Shown: positions 11,928 to 58,155 of the stretch, one piece after another
Layout of the letters: each line of letters begins with the position of its first letter
Position numbering within the stretch: position 1 is the first letter of the stretch
From: Corallium rubrum
Lineage: Eukaryota > Cnidaria > Anthozoa > Scleralcyonacea > Coralliidae
Assembly (NCBI GenBank): GCA_964035015.1
Contig: OZ035997.1
Coordinates: 26,362,788 to 26,426,787, forward strand
Reading direction: 5' to 3'
DNA length: 64,000 bases
Program-made: the position numbers and the translations under genes
The notes under the pieces: model-generated
Database searches by the model: none
Seen by the model: the letters and a program-made list of their open reading frames with translations, nothing else
Told to the model about the DNA's origin: nothing

Positions 11928-12048
<121 letters not shown>

Positions 12049-27035: not shown

Positions 27036-27062
27036 TATATATATATATATATATATATATAT

Positions 27063-27100: not shown

Positions 27101-27103
<3 letters not shown>

Positions 27104-32819: not shown

Positions 32820-32865
32820 AGTAGTATTATAGGGGGCGATCGACCCGTATTTTTAAGGCGGCGCT

Positions 32866-33002
32866 AGGCGGCGTTCTCATTAATATTCAGGCGGCGTTCT
32901 CATTAATATTCAGGCGGCGTTTCATTAATATTCAGGCGGCGTTCTCATTAATATTCAGGCGGCGTTCTCATTAGTATTCAGGCGGCGTTCTCATTAATTC
33001 TC
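32866..33002. repeat. 23-bp subterminal tandem repeat, left end, ~6 copies
   Basis: Unit AGGCGGCGTTCTCATTAATATTC. The right end carries about 3-4 inverted copies, so copy number differs between ends. Confidence 0.92.
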
Positions 33003-33370
33003 ATGCTCCTTTGCGACCCTCTAACCCTAATCTCATTACGTCATTATGTCTCGTGCGCCTATATGACCCCTAACCCTAATCTCACTCAAGCCCCCGTTAT
33101 TCACTACGTCATATTCACTAACCCTAGCTGTCACTCAACCCCCCGGTTTTCACTACGTCATACTGACTTATTATTTATTCATTCTCAGACTCCTTTAGGA
33201 CCTTTTAACCCTAACTTTTCCCCCCAACCCCAACTGTCACTCAACCCCCCCGGTTTTCACTACGTCATACCGACTTATTATTTATTCATTCTCAAACTCC
33301 TTTGGGACGTAGTAACCCTAACTTTCCCCCCTAACCCTAGATGTTACTTAACCCCCCGTCATAACCGATA
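33003..33370. repeat. ~100-bp subterminal repeats with TAACCCTAA words (outer left)
   Basis: Each unit combines CTTATTATTTATTCATTCTC, GACTCCTTTGGGACC-like, CTAACCCTAA, GTCACTCAACCCC and GGTTTTCACTACGTCATAC. The CTAACCCTAA core equals 1.5 units of the animal telomere repeat. Homologous blocks occur at all four element ends. Frames crossing it are proline-rich artefacts. Confidence 0.85.
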
Positions 33371-34570
33371 GCTCTCCGACTGATTTCCGAAGTTACGTAA
33401 AAGGTACTCGGCTTATATCCTTATAAGTAATAGTAATCACCTTTTCATTTAAACACTTTACCCTACTGACAGTCGACAGTTGTGGGACACGTAGACGTAC
33501 AGAGCATGCGTACGATAAACTTTAACAAAATAGACGTTCTTTACAAGGAACTAAAGAGAAATTGATAGAGGCACTTTATATTTTTTTATCTGAAACCTTG
33601 AGTATAGAGAGTTTTGAGCAGCCTAATTGTCTGAATTGGCAGAGCTCGTATAGACTTAGATTAATAGCATATGATGAATATTATATTAGGTTTAGAACCT
33701 AAATATTCATTCATCCTAGAATCATTACTAGCTAAACCCTTGTTTATAAGTGAAGAAATCATAAGAAGATAGAATGAGGAGTCAATTCAAAAGCCATAAG
33801 AACGTTTTTAAGTGTCAATATATAAACGAAATATTATTTGGCTGTGGGACGGCTGGAGTATCGACTTGAATTCGTATAGATTTAGATTAATAGCATATAA
33901 TGAATATTATAATAGAACCTAAATATTCAATCATCCTAGAATCATTGCTAGCTAAACCCTTGTTTATAAGTGAAGAAATCGTAAGAAGATAGAATGAGCA
34001 GTCAATTTTAAAAAGCCATAAGAACGTTTTTTAAGTGTCGATATATAAAATGAAATATTATTTGGCTGCGGGACGGCTGAGTATCGACTTGAATTAATAG
34101 CAACATGAATATTATATTAGTTAGAACTTAAACGACCATCTTTACCTATTTACTTGGAGATATGTGCCGAATTGTCGCTTATTTGGCTTTAGTGTATAAA
34201 GTAAACGATGCCTTGAATGAACAAACCGTTCGGCAAGCTGTTCGAAAGACATTGAATCATTTTCTTCAGAGGGGTTTGCCAGAATATAAACTGTCAAGGG
34301 TTAAACGGCTGACTCGGCTATTTTATTAACGTCGTCAAGCATCTTGTTAATGTTGCTACGGCTGATATTTGCGTATTTATGCTCAGTGCACGTGCAGGAG
34401 ACAAAAGAGAAACTCATTAAAGTTACTAATGACCAAAACTTAACCGGATTTACATATAAGTAGAATATTTAATTCATTTTAGGGATGATCATGAGTTTTT
34501 GGGGGATAATAAGGGGCATGAAGAGGTGTTAATGCATGGGCAAGTTCAGGCGAGAAAGTCATTAGGACAG

Positions 34571-34662
34571 GTTCTGAAATTACGAAACTAAAGAGACCGG
34601 CTTACGAGGAGTACCTTGTTGAAAAATATGGAAACGTTACGAACAAAAGCAATTTGAACTAA
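34571..34662 (+). pseudogene. Truncated 3' end of the HPSQ-type gene (outer left arm)
   Basis: Codons for PAYEEYLVEKYGNVT and the terminal KSNLN plus stop match the C-terminus of the full HPSQ proteins (REAYEEYLLEKSRNLTTKSN). The upstream ~130 codons have been deleted, joining EITKLKR directly to PAYEEYL. The mirror copy is at 50,876-50,966. Confidence 0.8.
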
Positions 34663-34879
34663 TGTTGTATGTGTTATGAGGACATAATCGAGTTAATCTG
34701 AAATAAACGTGTAGATTGAACTTGCTCATTTTTAATACATATTAATATCCTTTTGCGGGACATATGTGTCCCGGAAGGACTTTTATTTGATAATTAGTCC
34801 TTTTGAATAATACCCCATACGTTCTCTCTGATCCCCCAAAGACCCTATCTTACCCCAAAAGGTACCCCTATTATTTACA

Positions 34880-35735
34880 CTTTATTTAACGACGCTAGCC
34901 CCAACAACTACAAAAGTTGATTTCCACGGGGGGCGTCCATATAAAATATATTACAGAGAATATAAAAAGGAAGGAAACTAAGTCTACTACTATATGTACA
35001 TCACTACTATAATTTACGATGGTGTGACCCAGATAAAGATATGATTAAAAAAAAATCCATACTCGATTTTTAACATCGAATATTTTGTTTGATACAACTT
35101 TTCAATGAGTAAATTGATTGAGCTTGCTTAGCTTGAAGCGGAAGGTTATTCCAAAGATAAGCACCGCTATATTTAAAACTTCTTTTGAGAAATTCTCTAT
35201 TTGGCTTTGGAAGGGACAGATCAGTTTGAGAATTTCTAAGATTATAATTATTTAGTAAAATATTCCTACTGATGAATGAATCTTTCAGAGTCGGTGCAGC
35301 ACTATTACTCAAGACTTTATATAAGAATGTCGCCTTGGTTAAGTACCATCTTGTTTCCAAATTTTCCCAATCAAGAGATCGAAGAACGTCAGCAGATCTG
35401 ATCTCGTAACTGGCGCCAGCTATTATTCTGGCAGCCCGATTTTGAAACCTTTGTAAGTTATCTCTCAGTGTTTTGTTACAGACTCCCCAAAGGGGAGAGC
35501 AGTAATCGAAGTAAGGCTGTATCAGAGCATTATAAATTGATATCAAAGTGTTTGCAGGAACATAGGGCTTGATACGCCTTAAAATTCCTATGCCCGCACC
35601 AACTTTTTTGCAAACCATTTCTATATGTTCATCCCAATTCAATGTTTCATCAAGTTTAACTCCCAAACACGAAATTGAGTGCACTCTGGGAATCAGTTGA
35701 TTATTAATCATTACGGGGAACCCCTTTGATCGACC
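34880..35735 (-). mobile_element. LINE-H: 5'-truncated LINE inserted in the left arm only
   Basis: A minus-strand frame of up to 233 codons (35,070-35,771) gives the RT C-terminal region: ISCLGVKLDETLNWDEHIEM, LISIYNALIQPYFDYCSPLW, FQNRAARIIAGASYE and AYLWNNLPLQAKQ. The first ~12 codons (MYANRSIKGVPQG) are element sequence, not LINE. The mirrored right arm (50,605-50,700) lacks it, so it arrived after the palindrome formed. The frame is intact to a natural stop, suggesting a fairly recent insertion. Confidence 0.82.
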
Positions 35736-36343
35736 CTGGGGCACCCCTTTGATCGATCGATTTGCATACACTGTAGAATATGTAATTATGGGAACGTAAT
35801 GAGTACTCTCTTACACACCCTTTAGCCTAGGGTTTTGAAAGCCTGGCCAATGGTAAAAAACAAAGAAAACAATTTGAGATGTTCCGACACATAATAAGGT
35901 ATTCTCTCATTGTATAGGGAGTTTCGGCGAATGATTCAAATTTGTCGCTCTTTTAAATTAAATGAATTCGGTAATTGATCAAGCCTTAAGAACACGCCGC
36001 ATCCCAAATAAATATGAAGTAGCTTCGTTGTTCCCCACGGTTAACAGTCCGAGTTCTTTACAAAGGAATTTTTTTATTTTTAGTAAATCCATCCAGGTCT
36101 GTAATTCCTACTATGCTTTCCATCTTATCCGCTAGCAATGTGATACGAATGGGAACGTAATGAGTACTCTCTTACACACTCTTTAGCCGAGGGTTTTGAT
36201 GTTTTCAATCTGTGTAATCTATTTTTAATTATAACATGCTTGCCTCTGTCTAATTGAACGTCTATTATTAAAAATTCTCAAGCCTCTCGTATATAAAATC
36301 CCCACAAATTATAGTTCTGCTATCCTATAACCATCATTCAGAA

Positions 36344-36349
36344 TGGGAT
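36344..36349. other. Left 6-bp target duplication of the inner element
   Basis: TGGGAT, repeated at 46,010-46,015. The outer element's right arm (rc around 50,050-50,060) shows the uninterrupted site ...TTCAGAATGGGATGCTTGGG with a single TGGGAT, confirming the duplication. Confidence 0.93.
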
Positions 36350-36413
36350 AGTAGTGATACCCCCCCATCGAGGGACCAAAGGGATGCCGCCTCATTAAAT
36401 ATTCAATTTTTAA

Positions 36414-36840
36414 TTATTCATTCTCATGCTCCTTTGCGACCCTCTAACCCTAATCTCATTACATCATTATGTCTCGTGCTCCTATATGACCCCCTAACCC
36501 TAATCTCACTCAACCCCCCGTTATTCACTACGTCATACCGACTTATTATTTATTCATTCTCAGACTCCTTTGGGACCTCCTAACCCTAACTTCACCCCTA
36601 ACCCTAGCTGTCACTCAACCCCCGGTTTTCACTACGTCATACCGACTTATTATTTATTCATTCTCAGACTCCTTTGGGACCTCCTAACCCTAACTTCCCC
36701 CATAACCCTAGCTGTCACTCAACCCCCCCGGTTTTCACTACGTCATACCGACTTATTATTTATTCATTCTCAGACTCCTTTGGGATGTAGTAACCCTAAC
36801 TTTCCCCCTAACCCTAGATGTCACTTAACCCCCGTCATTC
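36414..36840. repeat. TAACCCTAA-bearing subterminal repeats (inner left)
   Basis: Four tandem units of about 100 bp, homologous to 33,003-33,370. C-run lengths vary between units and between arms. Confidence 0.88.
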
Positions 36841-38732
36841 CCGATTGGTCTCCGACTGATTTCCGAAGTTACGTAAAAGGCACTGGACTTATCTCTTTAT
36901 AACTAATAGAAACGAACTTTCATTTAAACCCTTAACCCTACTTATAGCCAACAGTTGTGGGACACGTATACGTACAGAGCATGCGTACAGTAAACTTTAA
37001 CAAAATAGACGTTCTTTATACGGAACTATAGAAATTGATAGAGGCACTTTATATGTTTTTATCTGAAACCTTGTCTGGAGGATTATAGAGAGTTCTGAAC
37101 AGCGTAAGTGTCTGAATTGGCAGAGATAACTGCTCTGGTCAAACCTGAATATTATTTGAATAATATGGAGACTTTGAATATTATATTAGTCAGAACCTAA
37201 ATGACCAAACAGTCTTATACACGTTTGGTGGCAATAAGTGTTAACAATTTTAGAGAGTTATCGTTTACTTTGGCCTAGTTTGTAGAGGAACGAAACAGAA
37301 ATGGATAGAGGCACTTTATATTTTTTGTCTTAAACTTGGTTTGGAGGAATATAGCGGGTTTTTGGTTAAGTAATCCGAGTGTTATTTTCGAAGAGGTGAA
37401 TGTTGACAGTTTTGGTCGAATTATTGCCTATCTAACCTTAGTCTATAACCTACTAGTGATTCCTTGGATGAAGAAACAGTTCGAGAAGTCGTAAGAAGAC
37501 ACAAATCAATTCGAAAAGCGAAGAGCAAAGACTTGTCCATATATAACTGAGATACATCATGGTTACTAGGCTTTCTCTTTATAAGTGAGGAAATTGTAGG
37601 AAGATAGAATGAGGAATCACTTCGAGAAATCGTGAAAAGAACGATTTTAAGTGTCGACATATAAAGGCAAAGCAGTTTATTACTTTGAAAGCGTTGCTAC
37701 GCTTTCTGTTACTAAGTGTGATATTTGCATATTTATCCTCAGTGCACGTGCAGGAGACAAAAGAAAAAACTCATTAGGGGTCATTAAGAGGATTAAGCGC
37801 TTAGGCAAGTCTAGGCGATGTCATTAGCAGTGTTACCATAGCGTCCTTCATTCGTCTCAGGCTCCTTTGGGACCCTCTACTATTACTCAGACCCCCGTGT
37901 AATACGTCATAACCGATAGCTCTCCGATTAATTCCCGAAGTTCCAAATGTTTGACAAACGGTGTCTTTCATGTGTGGGGTCTCTGGAGTATACACCTCCT
38001 ATTTTAAGTCTTTAGGCATTATGAGAATATTTCGTTTGTATTCTTTCAATGACTTGGTGGCTCTTAAAAGCTTGTAATTTTTAAAATGTGATTTGTTTAA
38101 AGAAACATGTTTTTATAATAAGACTAAATAACGAAATAAAGTTTCAAAAATATATAATTTCATATTTACCATCACACAAAGCTCCTAATATTTACAAACA
38201 ACGCAAAAGTTAAAATCCATAAGTTTCGGAATTATTTACAATCACTCGCTATCTATTACGGTTGTATATCCAATATATGTTAAATATCTCACAGTGTACA
38301 TAAAAATCCATTACCTGTGAGTAGGACAAAGTGAATAAATCAAAATTGATTACTAATACTTAGATTGAGGAGATGTCTTTGGGAGTCCAAAACCGTTGTG
38401 TGAACACGGAACGGTTTGCCGTACTCGTAAGTCAAACGAGAAGTCGCGCGAGTATGAGGAATCGAATCGAGAAACTGTAAGAACGTAAGATACAGACGAA
38501 ATATTATTTGTCTATGGAATGGTTGAGTGCAATGTTGCCATATTTGTAGAAGTCCATGTACACTAATGATGTTAATGGCTCATTAGCAATTTAAACAAAA
38601 GAACGAGTCTGGGCGAGTCTGAGCGACGTCAGAGCTTAGACAAAGAAATCCTAATTAATATGCTTATTCACGGCGTCGGTTTTCTCGGCGTATCATTTGC
38701 TTACTATTTGCTGTTGGAGTAAGACCGCAGAG
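36841..38732. other. Inner-element left arm, AT-rich non-coding stretch
   Basis: Mirrored at 43,624-45,519. Contains repeated words such as GAAATTGATAGAGGCACTTTA and TTTAAGTGTCGACATATAAA, and a GCACGTGCAGGAGACAAAAGA block shared with the outer arms. Short frames (37,421-37,660; 37,801-37,995) show no recognisable domain. Possibly promoter, origin or relics of deleted genes. Confidence 0.5.
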
Positions 38733-39215
38733 ATGGAGGGTTTATATGAAAAATTGTTTTCAATGTTCGAAGATATTTACAATGAAACTTTGTGGGAAGA
38801 ATATTCGAAGCTTTGTCGTGAAAAGTGCAATGGTTGTAGGACTAACCATCCTAGTCAGAAGCAACATAGTTGCCTAACAGATGATGAGCAAAGGAGATGG
38901 TGCTATGAAGAGACCAGGACAAACGTCGACGAACGAATCTGGATAGAGTTCAACGAAGCGGGAGAGGCGTTGAAATTACGAAATCAAAGAGACTCTCAAA
39001 AAACTTCGGAGACAATGGTCGAGTCGAAGGAAATTGACGACTCGCCAAATATTCTTTCTATATCTGTTCTGTTTAGCTGTCCATTAAAGTATCTGTACGA
39101 AGTAAAAGACACAGGTGTAAAATTTACGAGTACGATAAAGAATCCTCGGGAGGCTTACGAGGAGTATCTTCTTGAAAAGTCTAGAAACTTAACGACGAAA
39201 AGCAATCTGAACTAA
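38733..39215 (+). CDS. HPSQ-motif Cys/His-cluster protein, inner left copy
   Basis: A 160-codon frame from the ATG of MEGLYEKL. Twelve more in-frame codons exist upstream, but MEG is shared by all four copies and preferred. Cys28, Cys32, Cys35, His39, His45 and Cys47 (LCREKCNGCRTNHPSQKQHS) form a compact probable zinc site, preceded by an amphipathic stretch with IYNETLWEEYSKL. The C-terminal half is charged and ends AYEEYLLEKSRNLTTKSN. I recall related proteins with the (C)xxC...HPSQxxHxC signature from cnidarian and fish genomes, often near Maverick-like sequences; function unknown. The predicted protein is identical to the mirror copy at 43,141-43,623. The gene points toward the element centre, convergent with the ATPase. 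No introns needed. Confidence 0.75.
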   Translation: MEGLYEKLFSMFEDIYNETLWEEYSKLCREKCNGCRTNHPSQKQHSCLTDDEQRRWCYEETRTNVDERIWIEFNEAGEALKLRNQRDSQKTSETMVESKEIDDSPNILSISVLFSCPLKYLYEVKDTGVKFTSTIKNPREAYEEYLLEKSRNLTTKSNLN

Positions 39216-39455
39216 TGCTATATGTGTTGTGAGAACATTATCGAGTTAATCCAAAGCTAAATTATGTTTTAAGTTAAAAAAATTACTTGAACTATATAGT
39301 GTGTAAGAAAGATGTGTAGACCTGAAGAAAAATTTATAAAGACATACGAGCAACATTATAGTTCTTTGTAGTTTATTTTCATATTTATAACAAATTACAG
39401 TGTGCAAATTGACAGCTAATTATTTACATAAACTGTCCTGCGTTTACGATTTCTT

Positions 39456-39735
39456 CTAGCGCACCCACTTCTTAGAGATATCGTTTGTTTCTCTGTTGTC
39501 AAAGCACTGCTCGCTCTTTATGGGGAATTTTGATATTTTCCGGGTTTTTTTGCGTTGTTTATTATTTACGGACTCCCCATGCTGCTCTCTTAGATAATTA
39601 TTGAAGTTTGTTGCCATTTCCTCTTGTCTCTTTATAATGCTTTTCAAAGTTTTCTCCATATTTAGTTCTGTGCTGTCTGCGATAGGTTCTTTACTCTGTA
39701 AAGGAACACATATTCCACTTTTACTCCATTTTAGC
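39456..39735 (-). pseudogene. Out-of-frame C-terminal tail of the ATPase (inner left)
   Basis: The minus-strand frame past the ATPase stop (CVPLQSKEPIADSTELN, then EEMATNFNNYLREQHGE and a Lys/Arg-rich end) is shifted one frame from the ATPase. In the outer copy at 48,028-48,474 zinc finger and tail are one continuous frame. Protein-level conservation of this tail between copies (mostly conservative replacements) indicates it was coding. Either both inner arms share a one-base frameshift in an older joint gene, or the outer copy fused secondarily; I favour the first. Confidence 0.6.
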
Positions 39736-40662
39736 CAATTTAGCGCGTTCTTTGATATCCATGTGATGTACTTGGTCAAGATGATTTGCTAGCCTTGCAA
39801 GATTAGTGCTTCCGCACCCGAAGACAGGACAGTTTCTACGTGTGCGACCCATGTTTAGTTGTTTACTCAGTGTATCAGTCGGAAATATCCCTGATCTTAC
39901 TCGGATTTCATCGGGACATGTCGGCGTGAGATCGACAAACAGGTAAGAATACGGGTCTTTGGTTGCCATCTGGTAGGCTTGCTGGAAAAACTTTGTGTTG
40001 TCGGGATACAACTGTTTGGCTAGATGAGTTACTTGACTTGCATCACGAACATTTTTTGTTAGGACAAAGTAACTAGCGTTGAGAGAGATGGTACGATGGT
40101 CTTTGCTTTGATGAAATAAGTTTTGCACAATATAAATCACGCTGAGATTACCATGGTGCGATTTCTTCGTGAACAGCTTGGCAATAATCGTATCTTTTTC
40201 TCCCATCATGTCATCAATGATAAATAGATTTCTTATTTGGGGATTAATACTATCCAATATAGATTCGGATAAACCTTGCACAAACTGAATCCCAGGAATA
40301 AGAAGTTCCATTTTAGCAAACGTGTCTTGGTACTCAGAATAAAAATAAATTATATTTTCTGGGACAGGGTCGATCATGATTTGGGCGTTCGCTAACAATT
40401 CCTTGACAAAGGTTGTCTTCCCAGTCTTGGTCCCCCCAGAGACCAAGAGCCCAAAGGGATGTGTTAATTGTATGGAGTATGTATTTTTGTTGTCTTGGTA
40501 ATTCGATGCGGTTCCATCAAATGGCGAATGCTTAAATGTAGAATCAGTAGACATCGTTTGAATTGGCCGATCTCCCCCATGCAGGACCTTTATGTGGCGT
40601 TGTAAATTAAATTGTCTTGAAAAGCTCTTTCCGCAAATATTACAAGCGCTAGGCATGTTCAC
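39721..40662 (-). CDS. A32-like packaging ATPase with two zinc fingers, inner left copy (intact core)
   Basis: 313 codons. Residues 7-28 form a C2H2 finger (C-x2-C-x12-H-x4-H). The P-loop at ~76-84 is SGGTKTGKTT; Walker B is LFIIDDMM (~146-153). A later block HRTISLNASYFVLTKN followed by LAKQLYPDN matches the conserved 'ISLN..Y.vl.KN.RD..Q...LA.Q' region of Polinton/adintovirus A32-type (FtsK/HerA superfamily) genome-packaging ATPases. A C-terminal finger (C278, C283, H294, H299) follows. In relatives this enzyme drives DNA into capsids. Here it starts near the central satellite and reads outward. The frame is intact, unlike its mirror copy. It ends at AKLAKME, where a shifted tail frame begins. 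Confidence 0.85.
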   Translation of the reverse strand: MNMPSACNICGKSFSRQFNLQRHIKVLHGGDRPIQTMSTDSTFKHSPFDGTASNYQDNKNTYSIQLTHPFGLLVSGGTKTGKTTFVKELLANAQIMIDPVPENIIYFYSEYQDTFAKMELLIPGIQFVQGLSESILDSINPQIRNLFIIDDMMGEKDTIIAKLFTKKSHHGNLSVIYIVQNLFHQSKDHRTISLNASYFVLTKNVRDASQVTHLAKQLYPDNTKFFQQAYQMATKDPYSYLFVDLTPTCPDEIRVRSGIFPTDTLSKQLNMGRTRRNCPVFGCGSTNLARLANHLDQVHHMDIKERAKLAKME

Positions 40663-40804
40663 ACAACAACTCTCAAATTACTTGTGAAAATGTCCGGGAG
40701 AAAAGTACGATTATATCCTTGAGTTTCTTCTCTAATGCATGTGGGATATCAAAACGGACCAACTCGCAGCTGAACGTCACTTGGACGTTACTTAGACGCC
40801 GCCT

Positions 40805-41552
40805 CTAAATGAATAACTCATGAGTTACTCATGAATAAATGAGTAACTCATGAGTAAATGAGTAACTCATGAGTAAATGAGTAACTCACGAGTTACTCAT
40901 GAGTAAATGAGTAACTCGTGAGTTACTCATGAGTAAATGAGCAACTCGTGAGTTACTCATGAGTAAATGAGTAACTCGTGAGTTACTCATGAGTAAATGA
41001 GCAACTCGTGAGTTACTCATGAGTAAATGAGTAACTCGTGAGTTACTCATGAGTAAATGAGTAACTCGTGAGTTACTCATGAGTAAATGAGCAACTCGTG
41101 AGTTACTCATGAGTAAATGAGCAACTCGTGAGTTACTCATTTACTCATGAGTAACTCACGAGTTGCTCATTTACTCATGAGTAACTCACGAGTTACTCAT
41201 TTACTCATGAGTAACTCACGAGTTGCTCATTTACTCATGAGTAACTCACGAGTTACTCATTTACTCATGAGTAACTCACGAGTTGCTCATTTACTCATGA
41301 GTAACTCACGAGTTACTCATTTACTCATGAGTAACTCACGAGTTACTCATTTACTCATGAGTAACTCACGAGTTGCTCATTTACTCATGAGTAACTCACG
41401 AGTTACTCATTTACTCATGAGTAACTCACGAGTTGCTCATTTACTCATGAGTAACTCACGAGTTACTCATTTACTCATGAGTAACTCGTGAGTTACTCAT
41501 TTACTCATGAGTTACTCATTTATTCATGAGTAACTCATGAGTTATTCATTTA
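40805..41552. repeat. Central satellite of near-palindromic 30-bp units, orientation flips at ~41,129
   Basis: Units are GAGTAACTC-GT-GAGTTACTC followed by ATGAGTAAAT (left half) and the inverse in the right half. Perfect 9-bp arms surround a 2-bp core that reads GT on the left and AC on the right. Alternate units carry GAGCAACTC, giving a 60-bp higher-order period in both halves. The left half is ~325 bp and the right ~424 bp. Because unit length is a multiple of three, both strands show a repeating decapeptide frame, which I regard as non-coding. It is flanked by mirrored GAGGCGGCGTCTAAGTAACG. This is the symmetry centre of the inner element. Confidence 0.95.
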
Positions 41553-41695
41553 GAGGCGGCGTCTAAGTAACGTCCAAGTGACGTTCAGCTGCGAGTTGGT
41601 TCGTTTTGATATCCCACATGCATTAGAGAAGAAACTCAAGGATATAATCGTACTTTTCTCCCGGACATTTTCACAAGTAATTTGAGAGTTGTTGT

Positions 41696-42636
41696 GTGAA
41701 CATGCCTAGCGCTTGTAATATTTGCGGAAAGAGCTTTTCAAGACAATTTAATTTACAACGCCACATAAAGGTCCTGCATGGGGGAGATCGGCCAATTCAA
41801 ACGATGTCTACTGATTCTACATTTAAGCATTCGCCATTTGATGGAACCGCATCGAATTACCAAGACAACAAAAATACATACTCCATACAATTAACACATC
41901 CCTTTGGGCTCTTGGTCTCTGGGGGACCAAGACTGGGAAGACAACCTTTGTCAAGGAATTGTTAGCGAACGCCCAAATCATGATCGACCCTGTCCCAGAA
42001 AATATAATTTATTTTTATTCTGAGTACCAAGACACGTTTGCTAAAATGGAACTTCTTATTCCTGGGATTCAGTTTGTGCAAGGTTTATCCGAATCTATAT
42101 TGGATAGTATTAATCCCCAAATAAGAAATCTATTTATCATTGATGACATGATGGGAGAAAAAGATACGATTATTGCCAAGCTGTTCACGAAGAAATCGCA
42201 CCATGGTAATCTCAGCGTGATTTATATTGTGCAAAACTTATTTCATCAAAGCAAAGACCATCGTACCATCTCTCTCAACGCTAGTTACTTTGTCCTAACA
42301 AAAAATGTTCGTGATGCAAGTCAAGTAACTCATCTAGCCAAACAGTTGTATCCCGACAACACAAAGTTTTTCCAGCAAGCCTACCAGATGGCAACCAAAG
42401 ACCCGTATTCTTACCTGTTTGTCGATCTCACGCCGACATGTCCCGATGAAATCCGAGTAAGATCAGGGATATTTCCGACTGATACACTGAGTAAACAACT
42501 AAACATGGGTCGCACACGTAGAAACTGTCCTGTCTTCGGGTGCGGAAGCACTAATCTTGCAAGGCTAGCAAATCATCTTGACCAAGTACATCACATGGAT
42601 ATCAAAGAACGCGCTAAATTGGCTAAAATGGAGTAA
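41696..42636 (+). pseudogene. A32-like packaging ATPase, inner right copy (frameshifted in the P-loop)
   Basis: Mirror copy of the gene at 39,721-40,662. The N-terminal finger and the sequence up to VSGG are intact. Then a G-run of five replaces the six in the left arm, so the P-loop is read out of frame and terminates 12 codons later (frame ends at 41,965). The remainder, from Walker B through the C-terminal finger, continues in another frame (from 41,959) with the same residues as the left copy. A homopolymer length difference could be a real mutation or a sequencing error. If real, only the left copy is functional. Confidence 0.82.
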
Positions 42637-43623: not shown

Positions 43624-45519
43624 CTCTGCGGTCTTACTCCAACAGCAAATAGTAAGCAAATGATACGCCGAGAAAACCGACGCCGTGAATAAGCATATTA
43701 ATTAGGATTTCTTTGTCTAAGCTCTGACGTCGCTCAGACTCGCCCAGACTCGTTCTTTTGTTTAAATTGCTAATGAGCCATTAACATCATTAGTGTACAT
43801 GGACTTCTACAAATATGGCAACATTGCACTCAACCATTCCATAGACAAATAATATTTCGTCTGTATCTTACGTTCTTACAGTTTCTCGATTCGATTCCTC
43901 ATACTCGCGCGACTTCTCGTTTGACTTACGAGTACGGCAAACCGTTCCGTGTTCACACAACGGTTTTGGACTCCCAAAGACATCTCCTCAATCTAAGTAT
44001 TAGTAATCAATTTTGATTTATTCACTTTGTCCTACTCACAGGTAATGGATTTTTATGTACACTGTGAGATATTTAACATATATTGGATATACAACCGTAA
44101 TAGATAGCGAGTGATTGTAAATAATTCCGAAACTTATGGATTTTAACTTTTGCGTTGTTTGTAAATATTAGGAGCTTTGTGTGATGGTAAATATGAAATT
44201 ATATATTTTTGAAACTTTATTTCGTTATTTAGTCTTATTATAAAAACATGTTTCTTTAAACAAATCACATTTTAAAAATTACAAGCTTTTAAGAGCCACC
44301 AAGTCATTGAAAGAATACAAACGAAATATTCTCATAATGCCTAAAGACTTAAAATAGGAGGTGTATACTCCAGAGACCCCACACATGAAAGACACCGTTT
44401 GTCAAACATTTGGAACTTCGGGAATTAATCGGAGAGCTATCGGTTATGACGTATTACACGGGGGTCTGAGTAATAGTAGAGGGTCCCAAAGGAGCCTGAG
44501 ACGAATGAAGGACGCTATGGTAACACTGCTAATGACATCGCCTAGACTTGCCTAAGCGCTTAATCCTCTTAATGACCCCTAATGAGTTTTTTCTTTTGTC
44601 TCCTGCACGTGCACTGAGGATAAATATGCAAATATCACACTTAGTAACAGAAAGCGTAGCAACGCTTTCAAAGTAATAAACTGCTTTGCCTTTATATGTC
44701 GACACTTAAAATCGTTCTTTTCACGATTTCTCGAAGTGATTCCTCATTCTATCTTCCTACAATTTCCTCACTTATAAAGAGAAAGCCTAGTAACCATGAT
44801 GTATCTCAGTTATATATGGACAAGTCTTTGCTCTTCGCTTTTCGAATTGATTTGTGTCTTCTTACGACTTCTCGAACTGTTTCTTCATCCAAGGAATCAC
44901 TAGTAGGTTATAGACTAAGGTTAGATAGGCAATAATTCGACCAAAACTGTCAACATTCACCTCTTCGAAAATAACACTCGGATTACTTAACCAAAAACCC
45001 GCTATATTCCTCCAAACCAAGTTTAAGACAAAAAATATAAAGTGCCTCTATCCATTTCTGTTTCGTTCCTCTACAAACTAGGCCAAAGTAAACGATAACT
45101 CTCTAAAATTGTTAACACTTATTGCCACCAAACGTGTATAAGACTGTTTGGTCATTTAGGTTCTGACTAATATAATATTCAAAGTCTCCATATTATTCAA
45201 ATAATATTCAGGTTTGACCAGAGCAGTTATCTCTGCCAATTCAGACACTTACGCTGTTCAGAACTCTCTATAATCCTCCAGACAAGGTTTCAGATAAAAA
45301 CATATAAAGTGCCTCTATCAATTTCTATAGTTCCTTATAAAGAACGTCTATTTTGTTAAAGTTTACTGTACGCATGCTCTGTACGTATACGTGTCCCACA
45401 ACTGTTGGCTATAAGTAGGGTTAAGGGTTTAAATGAAAGTTCGTTTCTATTAGTTATAAAGAGATAAGTCCAGTGCCTTTTACGTAACTTCGGAAATCAG
45501 TCGGAGACCAATCGGGAAT

Positions 45520-45935
45520 GACGGGGGGTTAAGTGACATCTAGGGTTAGGGGGGAAAGTTAGGGTTACTACATCCCAAAGGAGTCTGAGAATGAATAAAT
45601 AATAAGTCGGTATGACGTAGTGAAAACCGGGGGGGTTGAGTGACAGCTAGGGTTATGGGGGAAGTTAGGGTTAGGAGGTCCCAAAGGAGTCTGAGAATGA
45701 ATAAATAATAAGTCGGTATGACGTAGTGAAAACCGGGGGGTTGAGTGACAGCTAGGGTTAGGGGTGAAGTTAGGGTTAGGAGGTCCCAAAGGAGTCTGAG
45801 AATGAATAAATAATAAGTCGGTATGACGTAGTGAATAACGGGGGGTTGAGTGAGATTAGGGTTAGGGGGTCATATAGGAGCACGAGACATAATGATGTAA
45901 TGAGATTAGGGTTAGAGGGTCGCAAAGGAGCATGA
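45520..45935. repeat. TAACCCTAA-bearing subterminal repeats (inner right, inverted)
   Basis: Inverse of 36,414-36,840; reads TTAGGGTTAGG on the plus strand. G-run lengths differ by a base from the left arm at several sites. Confidence 0.88.
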
Positions 45936-46009
45936 GAATGAATAATTAAAAATTGAATATTTAATGAGGCGGCATCCCTTTGGTCCCTCGATGGGGGGGT
46001 ATCACTACT

Positions 46010-46015
46010 TGGGAT
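46010..46015. other. Right 6-bp target duplication of the inner element
   Basis: TGGGAT, matching 36,344-36,349. Confidence 0.93.
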
Positions 46016-46160
46016 GCTTGGGGGTATCTTGGGGGTGTTTCGGGGGTGTTAGGGGGTGTTTGGTGCCTCACAAATTGTGGGTGTTTGGGGGTGCTCGAGG
46101 TGTTTGGGGATGTTTCGGGGTTTCTAGGGGTGTCTTGGGGTAATCTTGGGATGTTTGGAG
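46016..46160. repeat. G-rich arm segment of the outer element (G-quadruplex-prone)
   Basis: About 145 bp of irregular GGGGGTGTTT-type units with many runs of four to five G on the plus strand. The mirrored copy at 49,905-50,054 is C-rich. Present only in the outer element's arms; the inner element lacks it. Confidence 0.85.
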
Positions 46161-46271
46161 CTTAGACAAAGAAATCCTAATTAATATGCTAGTTGCCATA
46201 GAAAAATTACGGCGTCGTTTTGCTTGGTGTATCACTTACTTACTATTTGCTGTTGGAGTAAGACCGCAGAG

Positions 46272-46754
46272 ATGGAGGGTTTATATGAAAAATTATGTTC
46301 AATGTTTGAGGCTATTTACAATGAAACTTTGTGGGAAGAATATTCGAAGCTTTGTCGTGAAAAGTGCTACGGTTGTAGGACTAACCATTCTAGCCAGAAA
46401 CAACATAGTTGCCTAACAGATGATGAGCAATGGAGATCGTGCTACGAAGAGATCAGGACAAACGTCGATGAACGTATCTGGAAAGAGTTCAACGAAGCTG
46501 GGCAGGCGTTGAAATTACGAAATCAAAGAGACTCTCAAAAAACTTCAGAGACAGCGGTCGAGCCGATGGAAATTGACGACTCGCCAAATATTCTTTCTAT
46601 ATCTGTTCTGTTTACCAGTCCATTAAAATATTTGTACGAAGTAAAAGACACTGGTGAAACATTTACGAGTAGGATAAAGAATCCTCGAGAGGCTTACGAG
46701 GAGTACCTTCTTGAAAAGTCTAGAAACTTAACGACGAAAAGCAAGCTGAACTAA
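46272..46754 (+). CDS. HPSQ-motif protein, outer left copy
   Basis: 160 codons from the MEG start (16 more in-frame codons upstream). Same Cys/His cluster with GC(Y)GC variation: KCYGCRTNHSSQKQHSC, so the Pro of HPSQ is Ser here. It ends LTTKSKLN. Compared with the inner copies there are about a dozen replacements, and against its own mirror (48,757-49,239) it differs at two residues (C/F near residue 9, E/V in the YxEIRTN segment). Still an open frame despite the age of the element, which suggests past selection or recent activity. Confidence 0.72.
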   Translation: MEGLYEKLCSMFEAIYNETLWEEYSKLCREKCYGCRTNHSSQKQHSCLTDDEQWRSCYEEIRTNVDERIWKEFNEAGQALKLRNQRDSQKTSETAVEPMEIDDSPNILSISVLFTSPLKYLYEVKDTGETFTSRIKNPREAYEEYLLEKSRNLTTKSKLN

Positions 46755-47019
46755 TGTTATATGTGTTATGAGAACATTATCAAGTAAATCCGAAGTTAAA
46801 TTATGTTTTAAGTTAAATAAATTACTTGGACTATATAGTGTGTAAGAAAGCTGTGTAATTTTATATGTGTGTAATTTTATCTGAAGAAAAAATAATAAAG
46901 GCATACGAGCAACATTATAATAGTTCTTTGTAGTTTATTTTTATATTTATAACAAATTACAGTGTGCATATTGACAGCTAATTATTTACATAAACAATTG
47001 TTTTTAAATAAATCTGTCT

Positions 47020-47168
47020 TCCAGAACGTATACGCCAACTCTATCGATTAAACCCACGCGGCCAAACAATTATTCACGCCCTAAATCTATGAATGTTTTT
47101 CCTAATGATACCAATAATTGTATGGCCGCGTGGGTTTAATCGATAGAGTTGGCGTATACGTTCTGGAA
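47020..47168. repeat. Hairpin with ~50-bp arms at the edge of the outer element's core
   Basis: CCAGAACGTATACGCCAACT...CGCGGCC (47,032-47,075) recurs inverted at 47,121-47,166 with few mismatches around a ~45-bp loop. It begins where the outer arms stop matching (47,023). Confidence 0.8.
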
Positions 47169-47276
47169 CACGCATGTATTGTAGAAAAAGAGTGAGGAAT
47201 ATGGGGATAGTGCAAGCTCTAAATTACAGTATTAGAAATATAGTATTTTGATAAGTTTCTACAAATATTGACATGA

Positions 47277-47438
47277 ACTATACCAAACACAAAAATAGCC
47301 GAATTGGTAGAATACTGCGTATCACCTTACGTCTCAGGAATTCCCGAACCAGCTGGCCTAAATGTATTTGTAAAAGGACTCGCCGACAGTAACATTGACA
47401 AAAACCTTATCGAAAATCATTCAATGATTCAATCTTAG
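47277..47438 (+). pseudogene. Orphan coding-like remnant, unrecognised
   Basis: A 53-codon frame, preceded by a stop and without ATG, reads KIAELVEYCVSPYVSGIPEP and then GLNVFVKGLADSNIDKNLIE. The composition is protein-like and unlike the surrounding AT-rich repeats. It ends where a 21-bp repeat starts. It may be the remnant of another Polinton gene lost from this family. I cannot name it. Confidence 0.35.
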
Positions 47439-47655
47439 GATTCAATGATTCAATCTTAGGATTCAATGATTCAATCTTAGGATTCAATGATTCAATCTTA
47501 GGATTCAATGATTCAATCTTAGGATTCAATGATTCAATGATTCAATCTTAGGATTCAATGATTCAATCTTAGGATTCAATGATTCAATGATTCAATCTTA
47601 GGATTCAATGATTCAATCTTAGGATTCAATGATTCAATCTTAGGATTCAATGATT
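47418..47655. repeat. 21-bp tandem repeat, ~11 copies
   Basis: Unit GATTCAATCTTAGGATTCAAT, with occasional shortened units (GATTCAAT doubled). No spacers. Confidence 0.93.
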
Positions 47656-47929
47656 ACACTATTCAGTTTTCACGATTTTAAATGTTCATGGCGTGTGGTT
47701 TCCACGTTAAACTGTGCTTTTAAGCGCTCACTTGACCGTTTGGCGTGTGATAATAAATTAAAGTTTACCATGTCTTTTGATAATGACCTAACTTCGGAAA
47801 TCAGTCGGAGACCAATCGCAGATAAACTTCTCCTATAGATTTAGAAACTTTGTTAAACGAATTACAAAGACTTATTCGAAATACTAAGTACATAAAACTA
47901 GGCTCTTTTAAGAGTAATCTTTGAGGGCA

Positions 47930-48015
47930 CCCCGTGGTGTTGAGGGTATCTTTGAACGGGCCAAAAGGCCTAAACGGGCCAAAAAAGGCCAAATAGGGCC
48001 TAAACGGGCCTAATA
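47930..48015. repeat. Short GGGCC/TAAACGGGCC repeats
   Basis: Degenerate ~10-13 bp units (GGGCCAAAAAGGCC, CCTAAACGGGCC) directly before the ATPase fragment. No gene; frames here are simple-sequence. Confidence 0.7.
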
Positions 48016-48027
48016 AAAGCATCTATC

Positions 48028-48474
48028 ATGCCAGAAAAAATGTCAAATGCTTTCTGTCATTGCTTGAGTAAACAACTAAACATGGGTCGCACACGTAGAA
48101 ACTGTCCTGTCTTCGGTTACGGAAGCACTAATCTTGCAAGGCTAGCAAATCATCTTGATCAAGTACATCACATGGATATTAAAGAACGCGCTAAATGGCT
48201 AAAATGGAGTAAAATTGGAATATGTGTACCTTTACAGAGTAAAGAAACTATCGCAGACAGCACAGAAGTAAATATGGAGAAAACTTTGAAAAGCATTATA
48301 AGGAGACAAGAGGAAATGGCAACAAACTTCAATAATTATCTAAGAGAGCAGCATGGGGAGTCCGTAAACAATAAACAACGCAGAAAACGGAAAATATCAA
48401 AATTCCCTATAAAGAGCGAGCAGTGCTTTGACAATAGAGAAACAAACGATATCTCTAAGAAGTGGGTGCGCTAG
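48028..48474 (+). pseudogene. ATPase C-terminal fragment with in-frame tail (outer element)
   Basis: A 148-codon frame. After ~14 unrelated codons it enters LSKQLNMGRTRRNCPVFG, the ATPase C-terminal finger region, and continues without a break through RAKWLKWSK into the Lys-rich tail (EEMATNFNNYLREQHGE, ending NDISKKWVR). The P-loop ATPase core is deleted. The second zinc ligand is lost (GYGS where the inner copies have GCGS). The continuous finger-to-tail reading is the best evidence for the original gene structure. Convergent with the HPSQ copy at 48,757. Confidence 0.72.
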
Positions 48475-48756
48475 AAGAAACCGTAAACGCAGGACAGATT
48501 TATTTAAAAACAATTGTTTATGTAAATAATTAGCTGTCAATATGCACACTGTAATTTGTTATAAATATAAAAATAAACTACAAAGAACTATTATAATGTT
48601 GCTCGTATGCCTTTATTATTTTTTCTTCAGATAAAATTACACACATATAAAATTACACAGCTTTCTTACACACTATATAGTCCAAGTAATTTATTTAACT
48701 TAAAACATAATTTAACTTCGGATTTACTTGATAATGTTCTCATAACACATATAACA

Positions 48757-49239
48757 TTAGTTCAGCTTGCTTTTCGTCGTTAAGTTTCTAGACTTTTCAA
48801 GAAGGTACTCCTCGTAAGCCTCTCGAGGATTCTTTATCCTACTCGTAAATGTTTCACCAGTGTCTTTTACTTCGTACAAATATTTTAATGGACTGGTAAA
48901 CAGAACAGATATAGAAAGAATATTTGGCGAGTCGTCAATTTCCATCGGCTCGACCGCTGTCTCTGAAGTTTTTTGAGAGTCTCTTTGATTTCGTAATTTC
49001 AACGCCTGCCCAGCTTCGTTGAACTCTTTCCAGATACGTTCATCGACGTTTGTCCTGATCTCTACGTAGCACGATCTCCATTGCTCATCATCTGTTAGGC
49101 AACTATGTTGTTTCTGGCTAGAATGGTTAGTCCTACAACCGTAGCACTTTTCACGACAAAGCTTCGAATATTCTTCCCACAAAGTTTCATTGTAAATAGC
49201 CTCAAACATTGAAAATAATTTTTCATATAAACCCTCCAT
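48757..49239 (-). CDS. HPSQ-motif protein, outer right copy
   Basis: Mirror of 46,272-46,754, two residue differences. 160 codons from MEG, cluster residues intact. It faces inward, convergent with the ATPase fragment. Downstream of its C-terminus the shared 3' region (TTATATGTGTTATGAGAACA mirrored) matches the inner copies, including a poly-A-signal-like AATAAA zone near the convergent ends. Confidence 0.72.
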   Translation of the reverse strand: MEGLYEKLFSMFEAIYNETLWEEYSKLCREKCYGCRTNHSSQKQHSCLTDDEQWRSCYVEIRTNVDERIWKEFNEAGQALKLRNQRDSQKTSETAVEPMEIDDSPNILSISVLFTSPLKYLYEVKDTGETFTSRIKNPREAYEEYLLEKSRNLTTKSKLN

Positions 49240-49345
49240 CTCTGCGGTCTTACTCCAACAGCAAATAGTAAGCAAGTGATACACCAAGCAAAACGACGCC
49301 GTAATTTTTCTATGGCAACTAGCATATTAATTAGGATTTCTTTGT

Positions 49346-49904
49346 CTAAGCTCTGACGTCGCCCAGACTCGCCCAGGCTCGTTCTTTTGTTTAAATTTGC
49401 TAATGAGTCATTAACATCAATAGTGTACATGGACTTATACAAATATTGGCAACATTGCACTCAACCATTTTATAGACAAATAATATTTCGTCTGTACCAT
49501 ACGTTCTTACAGTTTCTCGATTCGATTCCTCATACTCGCTACTTCTCGATTAACTTTACGAGTATGGCAAACCGTTCCGTGTTTACACAACGGTTTTGGA
49601 CTCTCAAAGACATCTCCTCAATCTAAGTATTAGTAATCAACTTTGATTTATTCATTTGCCTTACTGACATGCAACGGATTTTTATGTACACTTCTGATAT
49701 GTCTCCCCATGATCAATTCCGCCTTGTTCTGAATTCCCACCAGAATGTAAAGCAGAAAATGAATGTCTAGAAATGATGGAGAACATAATTATTGTCACTC
49801 TTTTAATAAACACAAGAGATTTATTGTAATATTTAATGTTGATTAATAAATTTATTGGCCCAAATCATGTGTCTCCCTATAAACACCCTCTAAGGCACCA
49901 CCAA
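49346..49904. other. Outer right-arm segment absent from the left arm
   Basis: About 550 bp present only in the right arm. It contains sequence related to the inner element upstream of its HPSQ gene (GTCGCCCAGACTCGCCCAGG, GTTTGCCATACTCGTAAAG-like). It was probably deleted from the left arm, where 46,155 joins directly to the G-rich segment. Confidence 0.7.
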
Positions 49905-50054
49905 ACATCCCAAGATTACCCCAAGACACCCCTAGAAACCCCGAAACATCCCCAAACACCTCGAGCACCCCCTAAACACCCCAAGACACCCCAAACACCT
50001 CCAAACACCCCCTAACACCCCCGAAACACCCCCAAGATACCCCCAAGCATCCCA
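49905..50054. repeat. C-rich mirror of the G-rich arm segment
   Basis: Inverse of 46,016-46,160, with an extra ACCCC unit or two. Here the C-rich strand is the plus strand. Confidence 0.85.
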
Positions 50055-50875
50055 TTCTGAATGATGGTTATAGGATAGCAGAACTATAATTTGTGGGGAT
50101 TTTATATACGAGAGGCTTGAGAATTTTTAATAATAGACGTTCAATTAGACAGAGGCAAGCATGTTATAATTAAAAATAGATTACACAGATTGAAAACATC
50201 AAAACCCTCGGCTAAAGAGTGTAAGAGAGTACTCATTACGTTCCCATTCGTATCACATTGCTAGCGGATAAGATGGAAAGCATAGTAGGAATTACAGACC
50301 TGGATGGATTTACTAAAAATAAAAAAATTCCTTTGTAAAGAACTCGGACTGTTAACCGTGGGGAACAACGAAGCTACTTCATATTTATTTGGGATGCGGC
50401 GTGTTCTTAAGGCTTGATCAATTACCGAATTCATTTAATTTAAAAGAGCGACAAATTTGAATCATTCGCCGAAACTCCCTATACAATGAGAGAATACCTT
50501 ATTATGTGTCGGAACATCTCAAATTGTTTTCTTTGTTTTTTACCATTGGCCAGGCTTTCAAAACCCTAGGCTAAAGGGTGTGTAAGAGAGTACTCATTAC
50601 GTTCCCATAATTACATATTCTACAGTGTATGCAAATCGATCGATCAGAGGGGTGCCCCAGGGTTGATAGGGGTATCTTTTGGGGTAAGATAGGGTCTTTG
50701 GGGGATCAGAGAGAACGTATGGGGTATTATTTAAAAGGGACTAATTATCAAATAAAAGTCCTTCCGGGACACATATGTCCCGCAAAAGGATATTAATATG
50801 TATTAAAAATGAGCAAGTTCAATCTACACGTTTATTTCAGATTAACTCGATTATGTCCTCATAACACATACAACA

Positions 50876-50966
50876 TTAGTTCAAATTGCTTTTGTTCGTA
50901 ACGTTTCCATATTTTTCAACAAGGTACTCCTCGTAAGCCGGTCTCTTTAGTTTCGTAATTTCAGAA
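50876..50966 (-). pseudogene. Truncated 3' end of the HPSQ-type gene (outer right arm)
   Basis: Mirror of 34,571-34,662, with the same internal deletion junction. The deletion therefore predates, or was copied by, palindrome formation. Confidence 0.8.
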
Positions 50967-52164
50967 CCTGTCCTAATGACTTTCTCGCCTGAACTTGCCC
51001 ATGCATTAACACCTCTTCATGCCCCTTATTATCCCCCAAAAACTCATGATCATCCCTAAAATGAATTAAATATTCTACTTATATGTAAATCCGGTTAAGT
51101 TTTGGTCATTAGTAACTTTAATGAGTTTCTCTTTTTTCTCCTGCACGTGCACTGAGCATAAATACGCAAATATCAGCCGTAGCAACATTAACAAGATGCT
51201 TGACGACGTTAATAAAATAGCCGAGTCAGCCGTTTAACTTGACAGTTTATATTCTGGCAAACCCCTCTGAAGAAAATGATTCAATGTCTTTCGAACAGCT
51301 TGCCGAACGGTTTGTTCATTCAAGGCATCGTTTACTTTATACACTAAAGCCAAATAAGCGACAATTCGGCACATATCTCCAAGTAAATAGGTAAAGATGG
51401 TCGTTTAAGTTCTAACTAATATAATATTCATGTTGCTATTAATTCAAGTCGATACTCAGCCGTCCCGCAGCCAAATAATATTTCATTTTATATATCGACA
51501 CTTAAAAAACGTTCTTATGGCTTTTTAAAATTGACTGCTCATTCTATCTTCTTACGATTTCTTCACTTATAAACAAGGGTTTAGCTAGCAATGATTCTAG
51601 GATGATTGAATATTTAGGTTCTATTATAATATTCATTATATGCTATTAATCTAAATCTATACGAATTCAAGTCGATACTCCAGCCGTCCCACAGCCAAAT
51701 AATATTTCGTTTATATATTGACACTTAAAAACGTTCTTATGGATTTTGAATTGACTCCTCATTCTACCTTATGATTTCTTCACTTATAAACAAGGGTTTA
51801 GCTAGCAATGATTCTAGGATGAATGAATATTTAGGTTCTAAACCTAATATAATATTCATCATATGCTATTAATCTAAGTCTATACGAGCTCTGCCAATTC
51901 AGACAATTAGGCTGCTCAAAACTCTCTATACTCAAGGTTTCAGATAAAAAAATATAAAGTGCCTCTATCAATTTCTCTTTAGTTCCTTGTAAAGAACGTC
52001 TATTTTGTTAAAGTTTATCGTACGCATGCTCTGTACGTCTACGTGTCCCACAACTGTCGACTGTCAGTAGGGTAAAGTGTTTAAATGAAAAGGTGATTAC
52101 TATTACTTATAAGGATATAAGCCGAGTACCTTTTACGTAACTTCGGAAATCAGTCGGAGAGCTA

Positions 52165-52425
52165 TCGGTTATGACGGGGGGTTAAGTAACATCTAGGGTT
52201 AGGGGGGAAAGTTAGGGTTACTACGTCCTAAAGGAGTCTGAGAATGAATAAATAATAAGTCGGTATGACGTAGTGAAAACCGGGGGGTTGAGTGACAGCT
52301 AGGGTTAGTGAATATGACGTAGTGAATAACGGGGGGTTGAGTGAGATTAGGGTTAGGGGTCATATAGGAGCACGAGACATAATGACGTAATGAGATTAGG
52401 GTTAGAGGGTCGCAAAGGAGCATGA
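52165..52425. repeat. TAACCCTAA-bearing subterminal repeats (outer right)
   Basis: Inverse of 33,003-33,370, with roughly one ~100-bp unit fewer than the left end. Confidence 0.85.
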
Positions 52426-52436
52426 GAATTAATGAG

Positions 52437-52520
52437 AACGCCGCCTGAATACTAACGAGAACGCCGCCTGAATATTAATGAGAACGCCGCCTGAATATTA
52501 ATGAGAACGCCGCCTAGCGC
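52437..52520. repeat. 23-bp subterminal repeat, right end, ~3.5 copies
   Basis: Inverse of the 32,866-33,002 array. Confidence 0.9.
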
Positions 52521-52561
52521 CGCCTTAAAAATACGGGTCGATCGGCCCCTATAATACTACT

Positions 52562-58087: not shown

Positions 58088-58155
<68 letters not shown>

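Follow-up and report, generated by a model that had tools for sequence, protein, structure and literature searches.

Nested palindromes in the Corallium rubrum genome as probable fold-back derivatives of Polinton-type elements

Two palindromic units, one nested in the other and both bounded by AGT termini, lie in the 64,000-nucleotide stretch of Corallium rubrum DNA analysed here (the window). These palindromes and their relatives across the assembly are best read as derivatives of Polinton/adintovirus-type elements that arose by fold-back (snap-back) and then integrated, a reading to which, arguing from sequence, we assign a probability of about 0.72. A single stable mobile palindrome accounts for the evidence less well than repeated fold-back of one end with subsequent integration.

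The outer unit spans positions 32,820–52,561 (19,742 bp) and is flanked on either side by the 6-bp target-site duplication (TSD) TGTATT (32,814–32,819 and 52,562–52,567). Joining the 200-bp flanks with one TGTATT retained (HITPVLYSLHWLPVKF) gives a LINE frame that is continuous through the site, bearing out the initial annotation, which had described AG termini and a duplication whose removal restores this frame. The left arm, in forward orientation, starts with AGTAGTATTATAG and comprises a distal part (32,820–34,871), a further part (35,729–36,349) whose final six bases are the inner TSD copy TGGGAT, and a proximal part (46,016–47,018) reaching the fold-back limit. A LINE-like insertion at 34,872–35,728, delimited by an alignment break, is found in this arm only, the opposite arm being uninterrupted; a 246-aa frame overlapping it (35,070–35,810) had no Pfam match and is one that we take to resemble a LINE reverse transcriptase. 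The right arm (48,493–52,561, reverse orientation) ends with CTATAATACTACT and holds an uninterrupted inner-unit site near 50,049. Arm pieces are 95.6–99.7% identical. The centre (47,019–48,492), which shows no mirror symmetry as a whole, contains a hairpin-like stretch, a fragment of gene X (47,275–47,417), a tandem array and a continuation of the right arm.

The inner unit (36,350–46,009; 9,660 bp) has TGGGAT at either side, the right copy lying at 46,010–46,015, and is 99.2% identical to its own reverse complement across all 9,660 bp. Its left arm (36,350–40,800, forward), starting with AGTAGTGATACC, is mirrored by the right arm (41,559–46,009, reverse), ending with GGTATCACTACT; with the central array excluded, an alignment of the two over 4,451 bp shows 2 mismatches and 6 gapped columns. 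That array, a largely self-complementary 30/60-bp tandem repeat (40,809–41,552), contains the unit's own junction. The chained inverted fraction is 1.00 for the inner unit, whereas ten control stretches taken from the window gave 0.01–0.12. Its empty site matches at 108/108 positions in the opposite arm of the outer unit, and at 107/108 in each arm of a sister copy of the outer unit (C1:76160764-76171945). Both the nested insertion, with AG termini and exact TSD copies on both sides, and the preserved empty site had been proposed at the outset and are confirmed. Folded reads exist in long-read datasets, and the present analysis is of the assembly only; an artefact of such reads is, even so, scarcely credible, as the TSDs flank the palindromes externally, some insertions occupy one arm while the other retains the empty site, and arm divergence varies over many loci. 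Subtracting the inner unit, the inner TSD copy and the LINE-like insert from the outer unit leaves about 9.2 kb, as had been calculated, but the likeness to the inner unit in size is uninformative: since the sister measures 11.2 kb and paired elements range over 4–17 kb, we dropped it as an argument.

The inner left arm encodes an A32-type packaging ATPase with an N-terminal C2H2 finger, a 318-aa open frame (39,724–40,677, reverse strand) read from the centre outward. It matches Pox_A32 at E 5.6e-4, under that family's curated cut-off, and has 574 homologues, many with PF04665; its mirror copy (41,681–42,636, forward strand) is broken into two frames. A 186-aa open frame without family (38,655–39,215, forward) also has its mirror copy (43,141–43,701, reverse). 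No pPolB was found among the open frames of the two units, nor a protease, which was seen only in a fuller relative, and a PHROGs search gave no useful match. Vertebrate Mavericks carry the end motif (AGT)2//(ACT)2 or (AG)3//(CT)3 together with a 6-bp TSD, as described in PMC8097293, and both window units, with AGTAGT..ACTACT ends and 6-bp TSDs, match the first of these motifs. The Polinton-like nature first assigned to them is upheld by these ends, the TSDs and the Polinton-type ATPase in the arms.

Across the assembly, the outer terminus occurs 80 times and the inner terminus 457 times; the genome-wide counts cover patterns other than AGTAGATAACCCC and that of the C49 junction, and leave the ATPase aside. 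Besides the window, 17 pairs of outer termini were read, the 44 unpaired places (three in short loci, in the L001–L003 and L006 region, and the rest) being set aside; for the inner terminus, 100 of the 457 places were listed, all on C1. Searching with both termini, as the initial annotation had suggested, thus yielded further copies, many of them palindromic. The 6-bp TSD is exact in 22 of the 28 elements whose ends were read and matches at 5/6 positions in two; one more is exact with a 3-nt shift, and three have none. Inverted-repeat length varies from none to the whole element, many elements being palindromic only in part, some off-centre, and one lacking inverted arms; the listed pairs were sampled here at every fifth of 36 (7/36, one also in the earlier set). 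Foldback elements have very variable inverted repeats with tandem arrays, features that the copies seen here recall. An ordinary foldback-type, long-inverted-repeat DNA transposon, unrelated to Polintons and carrying captured Polinton genes, nonetheless deserves very little credence, because palindromes carry pPolB itself and because an asymmetric pPolB element (L032+L033) has the inner unit's own termini, with AGTAGT ends and a 6-bp TSD. This asymmetric element has short terminal inverted repeats (~0.26 kb of 10.1 kb), which the palindromes do not. The pPolB palindromes start with AGTAGA, not AGTAGT.

Fuller relatives provide the parental layout. Their gene order runs from the end through pPolB, a tandem array and the ATPase to gene X; genes of protease and capsid type lie deeper inside. 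Their pPolB matches DNA_pol_B_2 at E 2.3e-47 and has 199 matches in the genome, one in the element with inner-unit termini. In the relative L054, an adenain-type protease frame matches the solved protease S273R (E 7.7e-6), with no match in Pfam, and a capsid-type frame, without a match in Pfam or among PDB sequences, has 334 homologues, the named ones being ‘F54H12.2-like’; we link such proteins to Maverick capsid proteins and regard the frame as a probable capsid, the candidate here for the double jelly-roll major capsid protein of Polintons. Of 2,916 PF00665 (rve) integrase candidates, the 150 listed included none that we could assign to these elements; judging from frame lengths, they are probably mostly LTR elements. 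The fuller relatives have AGTAGT ends, a 6-bp TSD, pPolB, an A32-type ATPase and an adenain-type protease in common with Polinton/Maverick and adintovirus-type elements, to which a capsid gene can probably be added, whereas the palindromes hold one end twice and have lost the rest, the window units being without a pPolB frame. The first 776 bp of the inner unit are 87% identical to the pPolB-distal end of a fuller element, compared with 77% over 241 bp for the pPolB-side end; since the ATPase also reads outward, the inner unit probably arose by fold-back of the end distal to pPolB.

Other palindromes mirror the pPolB end. In a census by one marker, pPolB lies in both arms at 7 of 25 loci, those on C25 and C18 being known from marker or match positions and those on C12 and C20 from parts of arms. 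Arm identity is 99.7% over 5.8 kb on C49 (TSD GACCTC), 98.1% over 4.4 kb at C1:17.72, 99.1% over 5.4 kb on C14, and 99.6% across the 3.6 kb read on C20. The C14 locus, lacking a right end and with a degenerate left terminus, stands outside the TSD test; we had taken it for a single pPolB locus, a view rejected when its second arm turned out to be present, though damaged, making the locus a palindrome. We therefore probed ten other ‘single’ pPolB loci, and eight of these showed the parental order with capsid/protease-type frames.

Junctions were read in three pPolB palindromes with a third terminus (AGTAGATAACC), relatives of the window's inner unit. Their centres are single-copy loops of 234, 652 and 2,959 bp, each with its own breakpoint in the parental order. 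At the C49 junction, inside a tandem array, loop end and arm share 4 nt of inverted homology (CTAA); the C14 junction has 6 nt (GTTCAG), and C1:17.72 has 15/16 nt with an exact part of 4 nt. Among random junctions, at least 4 nt are shared in 0.45% and at least 6 nt in 0.03%. The single mismatched base at C1:17.72 is also a difference between the arms, and there the palindrome retains the loop-side base, as expected of a primer. A common centre for C49 and C1:17.72 was considered and rejected, the matching stretches being parental ATPase. Human fold-back inverted duplications, as PMC3907307 describes them, likewise have a single-copy spacer and 2–8 bp of inverted microhomology at the junction. 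This shared signature would suit an inverted duplication that formed chromosomally, once the element had been inserted, through fold-back break repair or origin-dependent inverted amplification. The human case is chromosomal break repair (PMC3907307), whereas here a mobile element is bounded by its own ends: chromosomal repair would copy host flank, but the copied arm stops at the terminus, a single TSD encloses the whole palindrome, and the pattern recurs across many loci, making such an origin very unlikely.

A harder rival is one or a few stable lineages that move as palindromes, their arms homogenised by gene conversion via a hairpin form. There are many palindromic copies with TSDs, the inner and outer arms have a 1.6-kb stretch in common at 90% identity and in the same orientation, and arms remain alike within elements. 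Against this, loops and breakpoints differ among the palindromes read, and the C14 junction is private, occurring once in the 474-Mb assembly with up to one mismatch allowed. An exact match to the C1:17.72 junction string is also found once, although, being one base off the parental gene, it is a weak test. Seven marker pairs show seven spacings (1,978–4,160 bp), to which array length also contributes, and the centres of the outer unit and its sister are unlike although the two are ~98% identical. We dropped a single lineage with gene conversion on the unlike loops, private junction and differing centres, and regard stable lineages as improbable. Together with a shallow, poorly resolved tree on which palindromic and unmirrored pPolB loci are intermixed, these observations suggest that palindromes were made anew several times, so that the ‘stable mobile palindromic form’ initially proposed found no support, though an individual palindrome may be copied as such.

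Under fold-back and integration, a strand started at one end would quit its template during replication of a linear copy, its 3′ end would fold onto a short inverted match in the same strand, and it would copy itself back as far as the starting end. Copying of this hairpin, likely by the element's own protein-primed polymerase, would give a linear duplex whose two ends, and hence origins, are identical; an integrase meeting two proper AGT ends could insert it. Polinton replication and a possible free linear form have largely been inferred from gene content. The yeast linear plasmid pGKL1 has palindromic and hairpin derivatives and adenovirus has symmetric defective genomes; both are protein-primed linear replicons yielding mirrored copies of one end, as here, but their derivatives are extrachromosomal, whereas these palindromes are inserted. 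We know of no dispersed insertions of such derivatives, and our literature search on them found no paper. AAV snapback subgenomes are similarly self-complementary and derive from the left or right moiety, symmetrically or asymmetrically; as PMC8235507 presents them, they are parvovirus particles seen by sequencing, whereas the present cases are chromosomal insertions with TSDs. A palindromic Polinton was not found by literature search either, in line with the initial remark that such a form had not been seen described.

If this is true, snap-back by-products of a pPolB element serve as insertion substrates and may form a good share of its copies. Each palindrome, with a fold-back junction of its own, proper ends and one enclosing TSD, would then be a physical trace of the passage from replication to integration, its junction countable and its arm divergence datable. 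For work on the stability of palindromes in animals, they also provide naturally occurring examples of great length that carry age marks of their own. More tentatively, and with doubt prevailing, palindromic Polintons might constitute a second, regular form of the genome. Capsid-less and with an origin at either end, these snap-back molecules would multiply to the detriment of full-length Polintons, in the manner of defective interfering genomes, and would share their integrase for insertion, an animal genome keeping a fossil record of snap-back products of both ends.

Arm comparisons show identities of 99.9, 99.6 and 98.6% within elements versus 96.0–97.9% between elements, gapped columns dropped. 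Between the outer unit and its sister there are nine within-element sites and no arm-specific ones, 373 of 3,017 columns being gapped and left out. Sixteen sites place the right arm at C1:17.72 together with C20, against the left arm of the same element, a pattern from which we infer that some recombination between copies occurs too.

The two palindromic units that the initial annotation had proposed, each with its own 6-bp TSD and one nested inside the other, are both present in the window (G000:C1:26362788-26426787 of the 474-Mb, 312-contig assembly that was searched). The outer unit (32820-52561) has a copy of TGTATT at each side, and once its two flanks are joined with the unit removed, a LINE frame runs continuously through the site. 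The inner unit (36350-46009), flanked by copies of TGGGAT, aligns to its own reverse complement with 99.2% identity over its entire length; with the central array left out, its arms are 4451 bp long in alignment, with 2 base differences and 6 columns holding a gap. Its empty site, said to be preserved in the outer unit's opposite arm, is indeed uninterrupted there (108/108), and also in both arms (107/108 each) of a sister of the outer unit at C1:76160764-76171945, which carries its own TSD, AACATT, and whose chained arms cover 96% of 11,182 bp. A LINE-like insertion (34872-35728) is present in one outer arm only. The left arm of the outer unit ends at 47018, and the sister continues past the corresponding point; the outer centre contains a fragment of gene X (the frame next after the ATPase in the parental order) without a match in the sister. 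Comparison of the two gave nine within-element sites and no arm-specific ones. The junction of the inner unit falls inside a tandem array. Self-comparison of the window is dominated by TA dinucleotide runs at 11928-12048, 24042-24107, 27036-27101 and 58066-58193.

Both termini start with AGTAGT, the same motif as the (AGT)2//(ACT)2 ends that, in a study of vertebrate Mavericks, serve as criteria alongside perfect TSDs of 6 bp (PMC8097293). Each inner arm contains the gene of an A32-type ATPase that bears a C2H2 finger. The proposed genome-wide search with both termini found many more copies with 6-bp duplications: the outer terminus, AGTAGTATTATAG, has 80 matches versus 32 for its reversed control, and the inner terminus, AGTAGTGATACC, has 457 versus 22. 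Neighbouring AGTAGTATTATAG matches within 20 kb form 18 convergent, 3 same-strand and 0 divergent pairs, and the 100 places listed for AGTAGTGATACC include 36 convergent pairs spanning 4.9-15.9 kb, with no other arrangement within 20 kb. Among 28 elements with both ends read, chosen beforehand by exact termini, 22 have an exact 6-bp TSD, 2 match at 5/6, 1 is exact given an extra AGT at the right end and 3 have none. Directly outside the left end of one outer-terminus element (L019:121-555, contig C25) lies a 144-aa frame with CCCH zinc fingers.

The inverted repeats vary continuously in length and at most take in the entire element. The chained inverted fraction is 0.66-1.00 in 7 of 17 fetched outer-terminus elements, 0.28-0.56 in 8 and at most 0.15 in 2, with some chains off-centre; ten control stretches of the window gave 0.01-0.12. 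Seven inner-terminus pairs (every fifth of the 36 on C1) gave 0.07, 0.15, 0.35, 0.46, 0.49, 0.80 and 0.96.

A genome search with protein-primed DNA polymerase B (pPolB; 76 of 1079 candidates scored) returned at least 199 matches, mirrored pairs among them. The palindrome at C49:8475191-8487475 (~12.29 kb, TSD GACCTC) has arms 99.7% identical over 5.8 kb, each with a 1201-aa open pPolB frame, and an additional 242-aa C-terminal frame in the left arm. Palindromes of the same type lie at C1:17.72 Mb (98.1% over 4.4 kb), on C20 (99.6% over the 3.6 kb read), on C14 (99.1% over 5.4 kb) and on C12. A census with a 22-base pPolB marker (at most 1 mismatch) found 32 copies, comprising 7 mirrored pairs and 18 singles, so that 7 of 25 loci are mirrored; the pPolB genes point inward in all 7 pairs. 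The nearest named polymerase relatives come from octocorals and from Exaiptasia, which makes an anthozoan host probable.

Both C1:17.72 and unmirrored loci display the parental order (end, pPolB, array, ATPase, X). Of the mirrored loci on C49, C14, C1:17.72, C20, C25, C12 and C18, the centres compared are those of the first three, and the point of departure from this order differs in each: inside the ATPase in C49 (single-copy loop of 652 bp), just past the ATPase stop in C14 (234 bp) and inside X in C1:17.72 (2959 bp). The C14 junction has a single match in the genome when up to 1 mismatch is allowed. There the parental sequence is ..GGGGCTGTTCAG/TGACA and that of the inverted arm ..TGGCGTTCAG/GGAAATGG, with 6 nt in common; C49 shares CTAA. 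The C1:17.72 break lies within CAGAAACGAAA[A/G]TCGT, 15/16 identical; no other pair of 16-mers from X and the inverted polymerase arm matches as well (1 of 3,679,065); the exact match at the break is 4 nt, and the palindrome kept the loop-side base at the mismatched position. Random junctions share at least 4 nt in 0.45% of cases and at least 6 nt in 0.03%.

A single-copy loop with inverted microhomology, as in these pPolB palindromes, is also how fold-back duplications in human chromosomes are recognised (PMC3907307), and a close parallel is offered by the snapback genomes of AAV, which can derive from either end (PMC8235507). Because copying ends at the element terminus and the product lies within one TSD, fold-back most likely preceded integration and took place on a linear copy that was still free. 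The natural substrate would be the strand being extended by a protein-primed, strand-displacing polymerase. Such polymerases slip at repeated ends in adenovirus and phi29, and protein-primed slippage would fit the AGTAGT ends and the one end with an extra AGT. That end, in the C1:17729420 region (L042/L043), looks as if slipped by one terminal repeat, its TSD GACACT still being exact.

Arms are more alike within one element (99.9, 99.6 and 98.6%) than between elements (96.0-97.9%), as expected from separate fold-backs of slightly different parents and equally from gene conversion; the nine-to-none count of within-element and arm-specific sites for the outer unit and its sister fits the same two readings. 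Sixteen sites in C1:17.72 show the opposite pattern, which suggests recombination between copies. The inner unit is probably a fold-back of the end far from pPolB, since its ATPase faces away from the centre and its first 776 bp are closer to that end of an asymmetric element (87%) than to the pPolB-side end (77% over 241 bp).

This asymmetric element (C1:40167060-40177171; 10.1 kb, ~0.26-kb terminal repeat, TSD GATATT) has the inner unit's termini, encodes pPolB in a frame of 1076 aa and carries parts of an ATPase gene; its polymerase falls in another clade than that of the C49-type palindromes. At ten further unpaired pPolB loci the sequence 6-8 kb towards the interior was inspected: eight have gene X, protease and/or capsid-type frames, one (C12) is mirrored and one has a LINE-like frame only. 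Among solved structures, S273R is matched by one of the protease frames (E 7.7e-6), and homologues of one capsid-type frame are named 'F54H12.2-like', a name linked to Maverick capsid proteins; the frames are putative capsid genes, the one through these homologues and the others by appearance. In a tree built from 576-bp stretches of the polymerase gene, in which only 4 of 23 internal branches have good support, palindromic and unmirrored members of the C49-type clade are intermixed, the palindrome label requiring 6 changes versus a shuffled mean of 8.9, with 6 or fewer in 27 of 500 shuffles.

Our literature search covered palindromic, foldback, snapback, head-to-head and inverted-duplication Polintons or Mavericks and protein-primed parallels; among the matches listed, several of the lists being shortened (20 of 618 for one query) and coverage of subscription papers limited, there was no palindromic Polinton.

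A second pPolB group (L031 and other loci) has frames of up to ~1360 aa; at the nucleotide level L031 does not match the C49 element, and among the matches listed for the group no closely spaced mirrored pairs stand out. The asymmetric element also contains a 119-aa frame (L033:4444-4803, minus strand; C1:40.176 Mb) that looks Bcl-2-like by eye, with weak adenovirus E1B 19K similarity below the cut-off (E 0.0096). A 16.8-kb element on C244 carries a 369-aa frame (L028:4970-6079, minus strand) with a parvovirus NS1-type helicase match just above the cut-off (E 2.2e-4), together with a frame for a transposase of Tc1 type (L028:3026-4147; DDE_3 match, E 6.5e-10).
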